Shown here piece after piece: positions 10,884 through 53,440 of a DNA stretch of 64,000 nucleotides. The number at the start of each line of letters is the position of its first letter. Position 1 is the stretch's first letter. The position numbers and the translations under genes are program-made. Under the pieces are notes generated by a model that saw only the letters and a list, made by a program, of their open reading frames with translations, was not told the origin of the DNA and did no database searches. Source of the DNA: Candidatus Gastranaerophilales bacterium (lineage in GTDB: Bacteria > Cyanobacteriota > Vampirovibrionia > Gastranaerophilales > Gastranaerophilaceae); contig CALUPW010000001.1 in the NCBI GenBank assembly GCA_944322785.1, positions 62,001 to 126,000 on the forward strand. The letters are read 5' to 3'.

Positions 10884-10954
10884 AAACCCGTTATTTTGTT
10901 TCAATTTGTCATTCTGAACTTGATTCAGAATCTAATTGATAAAATAACGGGTTT
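10884..10954 (-). terminator. pgi terminator with a nested palindrome in its loop
   Basis: A perfect 14-base inverted repeat (AAACCCGTTATTTT at 10884-10897; AAAATAACGGGTTT at 10941-10954) lies downstream of pgi and between two minus-strand genes. The 43-base loop contains a second perfect hairpin, ATTCTGAA/TTCAGAAT at 10911-10931. The outer arm carries U-rich tails on both sides, so it can terminate in either direction. Confidence 0.7.
10909..10933. repeat. Short dispersed palindrome (GTCA-hairpin family)
   Basis: GTC followed by ATTCTGAA, a five-base loop CTTGA, TTCAGAAT and CT. Several palindromes of the same plan (near 32,928, 33,069, 33,117, 37,282 and in other pilin loci) keep the GTCA start and TCT end while both arms change together. 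This copy sits in the loop of the pgi terminator. Confidence 0.75.
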
Positions 10955-32793: not shown

Positions 32794-32847
32794 ATGGTAA
32801 AAAAGCAGACTATGATTGAAATTCAGGGGGGGGGGGGCAACCCGTAA
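32794..32847 (+). CDS. Leader ORF 1 of poly-G pilin locus (17 codons)
   Basis: ATG 32794, preceded by AGAGGAG at correct spacing, encodes MVKKQTMIEIQ and then enters a run of 12 G (32826-32837). It ends GGGGNP and stops at 32845. The same ending occurs in all four pilin loci. The pilin-bearing frame that opens at the G run is one base out of phase: one G fewer (11) or two more (14) would fuse it to this start. Confidence 0.6.
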   Translation: MVKKQTMIEIQGGGGNP

Positions 32848-34096
32848 AACAGGCTCCTGTTGTGATTTAGACTTATGTCATAATCTCAAAATGACATGTC
32901 ATAGCTCTTTTGACGAAAAAATAGAGTGTCACCCTGAACTTGATTCAGGGTCTATTAAGATAGGAAAAGATTCCGGCTCGGGAGCCGGAATGACGGGTAT
33001 AGAGTCAAACATCCTTCGCCCCGCAATCCGGAGTGACGAAGGCAGCCGGATGTCACGCACTCCGTCCCGTCACTCTGACGAAAGTCAGAGTCTATCAATG
33101 CCGGTTAATTCAATATGTCATTCTGAACTTGTTTCAGAATCTCTAAATAAAGAAATAGATTCCGGCTCGGGGGCCGGAATGACGAAACCGTTACCTGTGT
33201 ATTTGCCATGTCATTCAGAGCTGGCTGCAAAATCCGTTGAGACAGGGTCGAAACGTGATTTTATGCCCCTACCTGGTGACTCAGAATCTATCAATGCTGA
33301 TAGAAACAACCTACGCCGCATAGACCGGACTGACCAATCAAGCCGCAATGCAGCCTTTACACTTGCAGAAGTCCTGATAACCCTCGGCATAATCGGAATA
33401 GTCGCCGCAATAACTCTGCCGTCACTGATTGGCAGATGGCAGGAAAAAGTTCGTCAGGCACAATTCAAAAAAGCCTTCAATATAATTAATGTAGCCACTC
33501 AAAAAACTACTGCGGATCTTGGCTATGTTCCCGGATGTTATTACTGGGCTAAAGGTGATAGCCCTTATCCTGCTCTGGAGTGCGAAAGACAGGAGGACGG
33601 CAATTGTATTTACAAATATCCTGATGGTGATACACCTTCGGATTATCACGGCCCTAATGTTGATTGTAAGGCGTTTTATGATGCTTTTGAAAAGAATTTA
33701 AACATCATCCAGCGCTGTGAGCATGCGGAAGAAGACGGCTGTACAGTGCATTATAAAGGTTCGGATACAATTTTAAAAGAAAGTGATGACTCTCTTACGG
33801 AGGAAGAAATAAACGCTGCAACAACCGGAGACCCTGCAAAACGTGAGGAAAATTTTAACAAACTAAAAGCTATTGTTTTGATTGACGGTATAACAATATT
33901 AGATTATCGCAACTACCATCCTTTTGTTGATATAAACGGCAAAAAAGGCCCGAACAAATGGGGATATGACCTGTTCAGGTTCGTACGGCGAGGTTCATCT
34001 AAAAAAGGAATTTTTATTGATACGGATGTAGGTCAAACTGTTGATAAAGGCGGGAAAACAGCAGCAGAAATGTATGAGCAGTCATTTTTGCATTGA
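32816..34096 (+). CDS. Type IV pilin-like protein behind a repeat-encoded N-terminal region (locus 1)
   Basis: The frame is open from the codon after a TGA at 32813 to 34096. Its last ~246 residues are a pilin-type protein. The class III signal AAFTLAEVLITLGIIG begins at residue 179 (33350), with Phe +1 and Glu +5 followed by a hydrophobic helix and a Cys-containing globular part (YVPGCYYWAKG, NIIQRCEHAEEDGCTVHY). The preceding ~178 codons are repeat sequence. TTG 32816 has no ribosome site, so the true start is unknown. ATG 33263 would leave a 31-residue leader. Alternatively, translation from ATG 32794 could shift frame at the G run. dapB follows after 87 bases. Confidence 0.65.
   Translation: MKFRGGGATRKTGSCCDLDLCHNLKMTCHSSFDEKIECHPELDSGSIKIGKDSGSGAGMTGIESNILRPAIRSDEGSRMSRTPSRHSDESQSLSMPVNSICHSELVSESLNKEIDSGSGAGMTKPLPVYLPCHSELAAKSVETGSKRDFMPLPGDSESINADRNNLRRIDRTDQSSRNAAFTLAEVLITLGIIGIVAAITLPSLIGRWQEKVRQAQFKKAFNIINVATQKTTADLGYVPGCYYWAKGDSPYPALECERQEDGNCIYKYPDGDTPSDYHGPNVDCKAFYDAFEKNLNIIQRCEHAEEDGCTVHYKGSDTILKESDDSLTEEEINAATTGDPAKREENFNKLKAIVLIDGITILDYRNYHPFVDINGKKGPNKWGYDLFRFVRRGSSKKGIFIDTDVGQTVDKGGKTAAEMYEQSFLH
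32826..33348. repeat. Composite repeat block of poly-G pilin locus 1
   Basis: The block begins with 12 G and CAACCCGTAAAACAGGCTCC, shared by all four loci. It then strings together palindromes of the plan GTCA-arm-loop-arm-TCT: arms ACCCTGAA/TTCAGGGT (32931-32951), ACTCTGAC/GTCAGAGT (33072-33091), ATTCTGAA/TTCAGAAT (33120-33140). Inverted versions ending CCGGAATGACG occur at 32,990 and 33,180. The last ~140 bases (33207-33348) are almost identical to 47998-48138. Different loci contain different mixtures of these modules. Confidence 0.8.
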
Positions 34097-37138: not shown

Positions 37139-37189
37139 GTGAAAAAGCAGACTATGATTGAAATTCGGGGGGGGGGGGGCAACCCGTAA
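37139..37189 (+). CDS. Leader ORF 2 of poly-G pilin locus (16 codons)
   Basis: GTG 37139, nine bases after AGGAG, encodes MKKQTMIEIR and enters a run of 13 G (37167-37179), again ending GGGGNP and a stop at 37187. Compared with leader 1, one A before the run has become G, which lengthens the run but keeps the total length and frame. Confidence 0.55.
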   Translation: MKKQTMIEIRGGGGNP

Positions 37190-37410
37190 AACAGCTCCTG
37201 ACAGCGATTTAACAATTAGTCATTCTGAGGACAAGGACAATTTAAGTCCAAAGATTGAAGAATTTTACGAAAAAATGATCCGTCATTCCGGACCAGATCC
37301 GGAATCTATCAATGCGGATAAAAACAGACTCCGGCTCGGAGGCCGGAATGACGGGCACAAAGCCAAACATCCTTCAATCCAAAAAGTGGCGTGCCAAATC
37401 AAGCAGCAAA
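37167..37410. repeat. Composite repeat block of poly-G pilin locus 2
   Basis: The shortest of the four blocks: poly-G, the shared CAACCCGTAAAACAGCTCCTG start (one G lost), the ACAATTTAAGTCCAAAG module shared with loci 3 and 4, a palindrome with arms ATTCCGGA/TCCGGAAT (37285-37305), and the inverted CCGGCTCGGAGGCCGGAATG unit. The frame that opens at the G run continues to 37541 but is not the pilin frame. Confidence 0.75.
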
Positions 37411-38166
37411 GCCGCCTTTACGCTTGCAGAAGTTCTGATAACGCTTGGAATAATCGGAATAGTTGCGGCCATGACATTACCGACGTTAATAGTCAACCAC
37501 CGCAAACAGGTAGCTTTAACCAAAATCAAACACACTTATAATATTTTAAGCAACGCTCTTGAACGTGCAAAGGTTGATTACGATACCGAAGTTAACAGCT
37601 GGTATATACCCACATCAGGCAGTCAGCTTGAAAAAAGTATGTTTTTTGTGGAAACATATATGCTTCCTTATTTGCAGGTGTTACATTATTGTAAAGATGA
37701 GCCGACAGAGCCGTATTGTTTGATTTGGTATGGCGATTTGAATGGTGCTGGGAAACAAACTTTGGGACCACGAAACAGCAACTTTGGTACAGCATTTGTT
37801 CTTAATAACGGTGCGGTGGTCGAGGTTACTGTTGGAGCGCTTTCAGCAGCCAATGAAGGTGATTCGTTAGATGAAACAATCAGCAGGGTAAAAATTACAT
37901 TTGATATAGACGGACCACAAGGGTACAACAAAAAAGGCTACGATGTATTTATGATAGAACTCGGCGGGGCAGAAGGTCCAAATAAAAAAAATAATGCGGA
38001 TAGAAATAAATTTCTTCCCTATATTTATGACACCTCAAAAGATTGTGATTATTATGTATCAAAAGTAAACCACGGCTGCAACAAAGATGCCACATACGGA
38101 GGAAGTATGTGTCTTGCCTATATCGTGTGCAACGGCTGGGATTTTGGCGACAAATACCCGTGGTAA
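37312..38166 (+). CDS. Type IV pilin-like protein (locus 2)
   Basis: 284 residues counted from ATG 37312, which lies inside a palindromic repeat and has no ribosome site. The signal AAFTLAEVLITLGIIG is at residues 34-49, followed by AAMTLPTLIVNHRKQ and a globular region ending VCNGWDFGDKYPW. Segments such as LNNGAVVEVTVGAL and VKITFDIDGPQGYNKKGYDV match the other pilins in this window. Unlike loci 1, 3 and 4, the pilin frame is closed upstream by a stop at 37210, so it cannot be joined to the leader at the G run alone. Confidence 0.75.
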   Translation: MRIKTDSGSEAGMTGTKPNILQSKKWRAKSSSKAAFTLAEVLITLGIIGIVAAMTLPTLIVNHRKQVALTKIKHTYNILSNALERAKVDYDTEVNSWYIPTSGSQLEKSMFFVETYMLPYLQVLHYCKDEPTEPYCLIWYGDLNGAGKQTLGPRNSNFGTAFVLNNGAVVEVTVGALSAANEGDSLDETISRVKITFDIDGPQGYNKKGYDVFMIELGGAEGPNKKNNADRNKFLPYIYDTSKDCDYYVSKVNHGCNKDATYGGSMCLAYIVCNGWDFGDKYPW

Positions 38167-47517: not shown

Positions 47518-47571
47518 ATGGTAAAAAAGCAGACTATGATTGAAATTCAGGGGGGGGGGGGCAACCCGTAA
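47518..47571 (+). CDS. Leader ORF 3 of poly-G pilin locus (17 codons)
   Basis: ATG 47518, preceded by AAGGAG, encodes the same MVKKQTMIEIQ as leader 1, enters 12 G (47550-47561), and ends GGGGNP and TAA (47569). The same one-base offset to the pilin frame as at loci 1 and 4. Confidence 0.6.
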   Translation: MVKKQTMIEIQGGGGNP

Positions 47572-48871
47572 AACAGGCTCCTGTTGTGATTTAGACTTAT
47601 GTCATTCTTCAGCCAAAGACAATTTAAGTCCAAAGCCTCTTAAAAAGACATGTCTTAATTCTTTTGACGAAAAAATAGAGTGTCACCCTGAACTTGATTC
47701 AGGGTCTATTACTGATAACAGACTCCGGCTCGGAGGCCGGAGTGACGAAGGCAGCCGGATGCCACGCACCCCATTCGGTCACTCTGACAGAAGTCAGAGT
47801 CTATCAATGCCGGTTAATTCATTATGGCACTTTTGGTGGCAAAAGTGCCTCAAAACCATCCGCCACGCTGCGTTCACTAATAATCTGCACGGCTCAACCC
47901 GAAAGCCGGCAAACTCGCTAATGCTCAGACAAAGCCGGCTTCTGTCGTATGTTTCGCCAGCAATTATTGTTCACTCCGCTATTGCGGCAAAATCATCATG
48001 TCATTCTGAGCTGGCTGCAAAATCCGTTGAGACAGGGTCAAAACGTGATTTTATGCCCCTACCTGGTGACTCAGAATCTATCAATGCTGATAGAAACAAC
48101 CTACGCCGCATAGACCGGACTGACCAATCAAGCCGCAAAGCCGCCTTCACCATGGCAGAAGTTTTAATAACCCTCGGCATAATCGGAATAGTCGCTGCAA
48201 TGACACTGCCGACATTGATACAGCGAAAACAGGAAAAAGTAACCGTAACCCGCCTTAAAAAAGCGTATTCAATACTATCGCAAACATACGACAGAATGGT
48301 TTACGAACTCGGTTCAGAGCCGAGGGACTGGGGTATGGGCGGTATGTATGAAGAAGAAACTCATATAATTCTTGCCAACAAATTTTTGCCATATCTGAAT
48401 GTCATCCAAAATTGTATAGGAAAAGATAGAGATTTTGTTGCAAAACACTGTATTGATAATGAAAAATATGCAAATCCGAAAAATTATGCAAGTGTACGTC
48501 TTATAGACGGAATGACATTAATATTCAGAAACTGGACATCGACTTGTAATTACAACTTCGGGAATGAAAAACATCTTCAAAATGTTTGCGGTTCATTAAT
48601 AGTAGACATAAACGGTCCCGGCTCGCCAAATTTAAATGGAAATGATATCTTTGTATTTTATCTGACAAATTACGGAATATATCCTGTTGGAACGCAGTTC
48701 GATACAGCTATACCCTTTAACAAATATTGTGACAAAGATACAGAATGGGGTAAGATTGTAGGCAGTTTCAATAACGGAGCTGGCTGTACCGCATGGGTAT
48801 TGTACAACGAAAATCAGGAATACCTCAGATGTTCTGATTTGGACTGGAACGGTAAAAAGAAATGCCGCTAA
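47540..48871 (+). CDS. Type IV pilin-like protein behind a repeat-encoded region (locus 3)
   Basis: The open frame runs 443 codons. The pilin signal AAFTMAEVLITLGIIG begins at residue 201 (48140), followed by AAMTLPTLIQRKQEK and a domain with Cys pairs (VIQNCIGKDRDFVAKHCIDN, CNYNFGNEKHLQNVCG). The upstream ~200 codons are repeat modules. TTG 47540 has no ribosome site; ATG 48053 would give a 31-residue leader. A frame change at the G run would join it to ATG 47518. It ends four bases from the convergent XerC/D gene. Confidence 0.65.
   Translation: MKFRGGGATRKTGSCCDLDLCHSSAKDNLSPKPLKKTCLNSFDEKIECHPELDSGSITDNRLRLGGRSDEGSRMPRTPFGHSDRSQSLSMPVNSLWHFWWQKCLKTIRHAAFTNNLHGSTRKPANSLMLRQSRLLSYVSPAIIVHSAIAAKSSCHSELAAKSVETGSKRDFMPLPGDSESINADRNNLRRIDRTDQSSRKAAFTMAEVLITLGIIGIVAAMTLPTLIQRKQEKVTVTRLKKAYSILSQTYDRMVYELGSEPRDWGMGGMYEEETHIILANKFLPYLNVIQNCIGKDRDFVAKHCIDNEKYANPKNYASVRLIDGMTLIFRNWTSTCNYNFGNEKHLQNVCGSLIVDINGPGSPNLNGNDIFVFYLTNYGIYPVGTQFDTAIPFNKYCDKDTEWGKIVGSFNNGAGCTAWVLYNENQEYLRCSDLDWNGKKKCR
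47550..48138. repeat. Composite repeat block of poly-G pilin locus 3
   Basis: Poly-G and the CAACCCGTAAAACAGGCTCC start are followed by the CAATTTAAGTCCAAAGCC module (shared with loci 2 and 4), a palindrome with arms ACCCTGAA/TTCAGGGT, an inverted CCGGCTCGGAGGCCGGAGTGAC unit, an ACTCTGAC/GTCAGAGT palindrome and a locus-specific ~160 bases. The last module (47998-48138) is shared almost base-for-base with locus 1. Confidence 0.78.
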
Positions 48872-52751: not shown

Positions 52752-52802
52752 ATGGAAACTATTGATATGACCGGATTACAGGGGGGGGGGGGCAACCCGT
52801 AA
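52752..52802 (+). CDS. Leader ORF 4 of poly-G pilin locus (16 codons)
   Basis: ATG 52752, preceded by AAAGGAG, encodes METIDMTGLQ, which differs completely from leaders 1-3. It enters the same 12-G run (52781-52792) and the same GGGGNP ending. The change of sequence exactly at the G run marks that run as the left edge of the shared element. Confidence 0.6.
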   Translation: METIDMTGLQGGGGNP

Positions 52803-53440
52803 AACAGGCTCCTGCTGCGATTTAACAATTAGTCATTCTTCAGCCAAGGACAATTTAAGTCCAAAGCCTCTCAAAAATACATGTCTTGAAGAATTTTACG
52901 AAAAAATGAAACGTCATTCCGGACCTGATCCGGAATCTATCAATGCAGATAAAAACAGACTCCGGCTCAGAGGCCGGAGTGACGAAGGCGGTAAAATCAT
53001 ACCTTCTTCTTACCGTCACCCTGAACTTGATTCAGGGTCTATTAAGATAGGAAAAGATTCCGGCTCGGGGGCCGGAATGACGAAACCGTTACCTGTGTAT
53101 TTGCCATGTCATTCAGAGCTGGCTGCAAAATCCGTTGAGACAGGGTCGAAACGAGATTTTATGCCCCTACCTTGTGACTCAGAAACAATTAATGAGCAGA
53201 AAACTTTTGTCATGCTGAATTTATTTCATCATCCCAACAAGATTCTGAATCAAGTTCAGAATGACAATGCGGACAAAAGTTTTGTGTGGTCAACAATCAA
53301 ACAGAACATCCTCCGCCCCGCAATCCGGAGTGACGAAGGCAGCCGGATGCCACGCACCACATCCCGTCACTCTGACGGAAGTCAGAGTCTATTAATGCCG
53401 ATTAATTTAATCCGGTACTTATGGCCGCAAAAGTCCCGCA
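52781..53440. repeat. Composite repeat block of poly-G pilin locus 4
   Basis: The longest block. Poly-G and the shared start are followed by the CAATTTAAGTCCAAAGCC module, a palindrome with arms ATTCCGGA/TCCGGAAT, inverted CCGG units, ACCCTGAA/TTCAGGGT, the module seen at 33,207 and 47,998 but cut short at about 53,184, an ATTCTGAA/TTCAGAAT-type pair and ACTCTGAC/GTCAGAGT. The order differs from the other loci. Confidence 0.78.

Follow-up and report, generated by a model that had tools for sequence, protein, structure and literature searches.

The DNA that we analysed, referred to here as the window, is a stretch of 64,000 nt from Candidatus Gastranaerophilales bacterium (GCA_944322785.1, contig CALUPW010000001.1, positions 62,001-126,000 of the forward strand). 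It contains four cassettes in which a poly-G tract is associated with a prepilin gene (Table 1). In the first cassette the short frame that opens with an SD-preceded ATG crosses the poly-G tract and then stops, and the pilin lies in a different frame. The pilin copy matches PF07963 and TIGR02532. Within the interval 32927-33184 its leader contains five hairpin units. Four of these form two head-to-head dimers, each made of unlike units, at 32927-32995 and 33116-33184; the two dimers share 83% identity across 69 nt, and the remaining unit (33068-33093) lies between them. An initial annotation of this DNA had exemplified the family by four pairs of arms; three of these are present in the interval, whereas the fourth, ATTCCGGA/TCCGGAAT, is real but lies outside it, at 37281-37307. 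We also observed what appears to be a unit with its loop enlarged by about 50 nt at 33208-33290 (GTCATTCAGAGCT...GTGACTCAGAATCT), a form that recurs in other leaders (HSELAAKSVE...GDSES).

Table 1. Poly-G prepilin cassettes and hairpin repeat (REP) units in the window, in window coordinates.
Feature	Position	Strand
Solitary intergenic REP unit, in loop of terminator-like hairpin	10907..10933	+
Cassette start, SD-preceded ATG and short frame MVKKQTMIEIQGGGGNP ending in a stop	32794..32847	+
Poly-G tract, 12 G, prepilin cassette	32826..32837	+
Prepilin frame: REP-built leader, then pilin; N_methyl motif at residues 169-193	32837..34096	+
REP unit ACCCTGAA/TTCAGGGT, first half of head-to-head dimer 1	32927..32953	+
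REP unit ATTCCGGC/GCCGGAAT, second half of dimer 1	32968..32995	-
REP unit ACTCTGAC/GTCAGAGT, 4-nt loop	33068..33093	+
REP unit ATTCTGAA/TTCAGAAT, first half of dimer 2	33116..33142	+
REP unit, second half of dimer 2	33157..33184	-
Poly-G tract, 13 G, second prepilin cassette; leader out of frame with pilin	37167..37179	+
REP unit ATTCCGGA/TCCGGAAT (fourth example of the initial annotation)	37281..37307	+
REP unit, partner of 37281-37307	37326..37353	-
Poly-G tract, 12 G, third prepilin cassette	47550..47561	+
REP unit, third-cassette leader	47681..47707	+
REP unit, third-cassette leader	47720..47747	-
REP unit, lower score	47777..47802	+
Poly-G tract, 12 G, fourth prepilin cassette	52781..52792	+
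REP unit, fourth-cassette leader	52912..52938	+
REP unit, fourth-cassette leader	52957..52984	-
REP unit, fourth-cassette leader	53014..53040	+
REP unit, fourth-cassette leader	53055..53082	-
REP unit, fourth-cassette leader	53240..53266	-
REP unit, fourth-cassette leader	53365..53390	+

Each unit consists of an unpaired tag, [C/T]GTC, followed by the two arms of an 8-bp stem that starts with A, enclosing a loop of 4-6 nt, and a tail, CT. The ends GTCA and TCT by which the units had originally been defined are indeed seen, but the A of GTCA and the T preceding CT form the outermost stem pair, and the tag proper is [C/T]GTC. Using a covariance model of 27 positions and 8 pairs we found at least 147 units at E<=1 in the genome of 1.95 Mb, a lower bound because 150 of 1215 candidates were scored. 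The DNA collected from this genome yielded 126 distinct units, compared with one in the reversed reading of the same DNA. C or T precedes GTC in 119 of the 126 (81 C, 38 T), the loop measures 5 nt in 65, 6 nt in 41 and 4 nt in 20, and the tail CT, which had been part of the selection, is present in 121. All 37 aligned units have the 8-bp stem with an A-T first pair; the second pair is T-A in 25 and C-G in 11. Neighbouring units across the genome form 34 HH, 11 TT and 5 HT pairs. A search of Rfam gave no credible match.

The units are concentrated in one gene family. A cassette-pattern search located 36 G-tract sites in the genome, nearly all of them upstream of prepilin genes, and 88 of the 147 units have a poly-G tract no more than 1.1 kb upstream of them; the other 59 lie elsewhere. 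The distance from the tract to the first unit takes recurring values (47, 98, 110 and 127/128 nt), which would suggest that many of the copies were acquired when gene starts were duplicated. Those units away from tracts that we inspected were intergenic, in BIME-like clusters or at a pilin locus where no tract was recognised (L116). In the BIME-like clusters outside the pilin genes, units are mixed with longer repeats (L101, L102, L115 and L120, in C5, C8, C7 and C2 respectively).

Poly-G prepilin cassettes also occur in other species and genera of Gastranaerophilales. In the contingency genes of Campylobacter and Neisseria a run of G in the early codons sets the frame of surface-structure genes, and the cassettes described here likewise carry a G run in the first codons, near the start; they differ in being prepilin genes of Gastranaerophilales, for which we deduce switching from tract and phase. 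We compared the frame of the SD-preceded start with that of the pilin at 94 open-leader loci drawn from 13 genomes. The two agree at 10 loci and differ by +1 at 60 and by +2 at 24, and 10 of 94 is far below the one-third expected to be ON (p ~3e-7 if the loci are independent). The usual offset depends on the lineage, being +1 in the genus of the window, mostly with 11-13 G, and +2 with 10 G in G034, tract lengths being taken from assemblies and possibly representing consensus values. Could the constant offset instead reflect a programmed ribosomal or transcriptional shift at the tract, with no phase variation? In the window's own genome 27 of 30 open-leader loci are at +1, also where the tract has 11 or 13 G or is interrupted, and the interrupted tracts of G008 and G012 are at +1 too (interrupted tracts that retain this offset include L057, L141 and L146). 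We nevertheless consider a programmed shift rather unlikely, since the usual offset in G034 is +2, with 10 G, the loci of G017 are divided, all three phases occur in G006 and 10 of the 94 loci are in frame; the species-specific tract lengths and mostly OFF phases are a better fit to slipped-strand switching. We rejected one universal programmed frameshift, as the usual offset differs between genera, and the lineage-specific offset favours slipped-strand switching with mostly OFF alleles. The poly-G prepilin family thus probably undergoes OFF-biased phase variation. At one locus (L256, G000:C7:24600) the G tract is interrupted by an A and the start is in frame, and this may be a prepilin locked ON. 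A full-text search, a weak negative, found no publication on phase variation in Gastranaerophilales.

Several observations argue that the segment between tract and pilin is translated. Its length ranges from 132 to 777 nt, and yet at 30 of 33 loci it is divisible by three (binomial p ~1e-11, assuming independent loci, which these are not fully). When the 30 in-frame leaders are read in the frame of the pilin, 3 stops appear, whereas the two alternative frames have 160 and 350; 27 of the 30 are stop-free with their non-REP parts also open, which bears out the earlier observation that units in pilin loci are read without stops. Sense units use only their two stop-free frames (56 and 8 units) and never the third, and antisense units keep to the frames open to them (20, 18 and 3). 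Two leader variants, ATRKTGSCC and ATRKTAPDS, differ by mutually cancelling shifts. A BLAST count of single indels between leaders, in which 125 of 418 were multiples of three, was uninformative because the repeats misalign, and total leader length and stop counts were used instead. Three leaders are out of frame with their pilin (L032, window 37167-38166; L043; L050) and three others contain a stop (L036, L040, L059); these are probably broken copies.

The units are stop-poor by themselves, with no stops in two of the three sense frames, and the majority of SD-preceded starts do not share the frame of the pilin. It could be argued on these grounds that the leaders are untranslated, that the pilin starts near the pilin domain and that the open frames are a by-product of the REPs; Di Nocera et al. 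warn that, in many cases, REPs located at the 5' ends of ORFs may be non-coding (PMC3733652). This seems very unlikely to us given the lengths in multiples of three in 30 of 33 loci, the openness of the non-REP parts in the 27 stop-free leaders, and the short leaders of related genomes, which are equally open from the tract onward. The leaders of prepilins are normally cut off by prepilin peptidase. We infer that the REP-containing leaders are translated and cleaved off, although the assembly places most starts in another frame than the pilin. A different possibility is that the leader is a functional protein module and that selection acts on the amino-acid sequence of the peptides encoded by REPs, as the strong constraint on frame and recurring peptides such as RHSELDSES and DSGSEAGMT might indicate. 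We give this little credence, however, as the two sense frames and up to three antisense frames produce unrelated peptides, leaders may be as short as 43 or as long as about 260 residues, and the leaders of relatives are short.

Related genomes contain between 0 and 103 units, compared with 128 in the genome studied here (E<=5e-4). A search with the pilin of another locus of this genome, L038, gave matches in two Candidatus Gastranaerophilales MAGs, CALVEL010000002.1 and CALVAS010000001.1; with the window pilin as query against the genome contigs there was no match. In G006 the cassette reaches the pilin after 16-31 residues that are free of REPs (L063 and L142), and the pilin of L142 is 85% identical to that of L038. 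The orthologue of L038 in G008 (L066/L141) is syntenic, with both flanks alike, and carries a different REP mosaic that is still in frame. Together, the REP-free leaders of G006 and the different mosaic in G008 suggest that leaders gained or exchanged REPs after the species split. The short leaders of the relatives would also suggest that REPs enlarged a leader peptide presumed to be removed by cleavage.

The units had been described as a palindrome family with co-varying arms, and genome-wide this holds. When sites were anchored on the tag and left arm, which provides the unbiased test because the alternative set of 37 distinct units was preselected for at least 7 of 8 pairs, a perfect right arm was present at 124 of 168 sites and a 7/8 match at 22, compared with 16.4 perfect partners expected after shuffling. 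In the preselected set the covariation score was 0.545 against 0.223 for shuffled partners (0 of 500 shuffles reached it) and at most 0.137 when the partner was slid, with compensated changes at five of the eight stem positions. The 101 perfect stems fall into eight types: ATTCTGAA, ACTCCGGC, ACTCTGAC, ATTCCGGC, ATTCCGGA, ATTCTGAG, ACCCTGAA and ATGCTGAA. Uncompensated changes are found in 25 of the 126 units, seven of which join arms of two stem types, and private compensated changes in none. The covariation is therefore between eight discrete subfamilies and not within single copies. The further claim that paired changes preserve each hairpin is not supported: in single copies the arms vary independently, which the initial annotation had itself named as counter-evidence, and private changes break the pairing, and it is between subfamilies that the arms co-vary. 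Such a pattern is expected of a mobile hairpin whose pairing is kept in its source copies, and not of a hairpin guarded in place. Another reading would be that the hairpins act in cis in the RNA of the pilin genes, affecting mRNA stability or attenuation between tract and pilin, and are selected for structure at each site. In its favour, nearly all loci of this genome have stable stems between the start and the pilin, and REPs have often been proposed to act in RNA (PMC3733652). We consider it highly improbable, because the private changes break pairs and never compensate in our sample (25 against 0), unit number, order and orientation vary among paralogues and orthologues, REP-free leaders occur and 59 units are located elsewhere.

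A RAYT-type transposase had been put forward as a possible mover, but a search for Y1_Tnp/RAYT (PF01797) gave no match in this genome, several REP-bearing relatives likewise have no Y1_Tnp, and the Y1 genes that we inspected in relatives have no such units alongside. We rejected a resident RAYT/Y1 transposase on this basis; the lack of any recognisable Y1 transposase in a REP-rich genome speaks against a resident RAYT moving the units today. Solitary units are found in the loops of terminator-like hairpins at window 10885-10953 (L096) and at L098 1480-1560, and after tpiA, where this genome has a unit in the terminator loop, the hairpin is unit-free in G003, G006, G008 and G009, which suggests that hairpin loops are possible insertion targets. 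This one clean empty site and the copy number point to past mobility through a single-stranded DNA hairpin. As for in-frame units inside other genes, only prepilin leaders contained them among the loci inspected. The one candidate, in hydF (L012 1502, minus strand), matches a unit at 26 of 27 nt and encodes EILKQVRND, but is native coding sequence and not an insertion, because 12 orthologues align nearly full-length and the four displayed sites encode similar residues.

The units are a Gastranaerophilales branch of the CGTC-tagged REP superfamily, an extension of a known kind of repeat. Di Nocera, De Gregorio and Rocco (2013) described this superfamily, including the families CGTC-1 and CGTC-2 (PMC3733652); it takes in Neisseria dRS3 and the Rickettsia elements RPE-4 (CGTC-4) and RPE-6 (CGTC-1), so that the earlier comparison with in-frame Rickettsia palindromic elements was apt. 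Its consensus comprises an unpaired CGTC/TGTC tag, an 8-9-bp stem with A-T first and second pairs, a loop of 4 or 5 nt (other loops being allowed in some species) and a short, unpaired tail, mostly CCA; dimers are mostly HH, with TT rare and HT negligible, and no dedicated transposase is reported (PMC3733652). Our units resemble CGTC-1 and CGTC-2 in the CGTC/TGTC tag, the 8-bp stem starting with A-T, the 4-5-nt loop of most units, the unpaired tail, the mostly head-to-head heterotypic dimers, the high copy number and the absence of a dedicated transposase. They differ in many 6-nt loops, a CT tail in place of CCA, a frequent C-G second pair and a host phylum absent from the five listed for CGTC REPs (PMC3733652), and in that 60% of those identified lie in the leader-coding regions of one gene family. 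The Rickettsia palindromic elements (RPE-4, RPE-6 and also RPE-1) are likewise repeats translated in frame, whose clusters add peptides, with REP-encoded regions of 43 to 82 residues (PMC3733652). Rickettsia-type elements, however, enter many unrelated genes, whereas here only prepilin leaders are occupied among the loci inspected, and, ahead of the pilin domain of a paralogous family, the units account for most of the length of leaders that can reach about 260 residues. GTAG REP/RAYT systems (REPtrons) share short tagged hairpins, high copy number, dimers and clusters, but the tag here is [C/T]GTC and this genome has no Y1/RAYT gene. The unusual aspect, and the one that would be new to specialists, is location: in-frame copies concentrated in the leaders of probable phase-variable prepilins.

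Taken as a whole, the evidence makes it very probable that these REPs are non-autonomous mobile hairpins that built up in frame in tolerated prepilin leaders. Small hairpins would have been copied from a few source copies by an enzyme for which the stem-loop and its unpaired tag were the necessary recognition features, most likely as single-stranded DNA. A mobiliser that reads the hairpin of the source copies would explain why changes are compensated between subfamilies and private changes are not. REPs would have entered between the poly-G tract and the pilin domain by insertion, with duplication and shuffling of pilin gene starts, duplication being the likely chief amplifier, then mainly responsible for their spread. 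They may be tolerated there because the only product of this segment is a leader, expected to be cut away by prepilin peptidase, and survival of the copies that keep the frame would account for the present REP arrays, which code for leaders 43 to about 260 residues long.

This extends CGTC REPs to the Gastranaerophilales, and provides a natural example, complete with REP-free relatives, of repeats accumulating in frame where the encoded protein segment is probably discarded. In these common gut bacteria the host genes resemble an extensive set of phase-variable prepilins, of which our literature search found no published description for Gastranaerophilales. A tentative and, we think, doubtful extension is that a selfish hairpin has been turned into coding material, the shuffled REP leaders of some 35 poly-G prepilins diversifying pilus expression through turnover and switching. 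In G014, which belongs to another genus, the locus L138 (~2000-2520) has an open prepilin leader of 174 residues with peptides like SFAVAQDD. It is apparently built from a different repeat, and would represent a parallel invasion of a leader.
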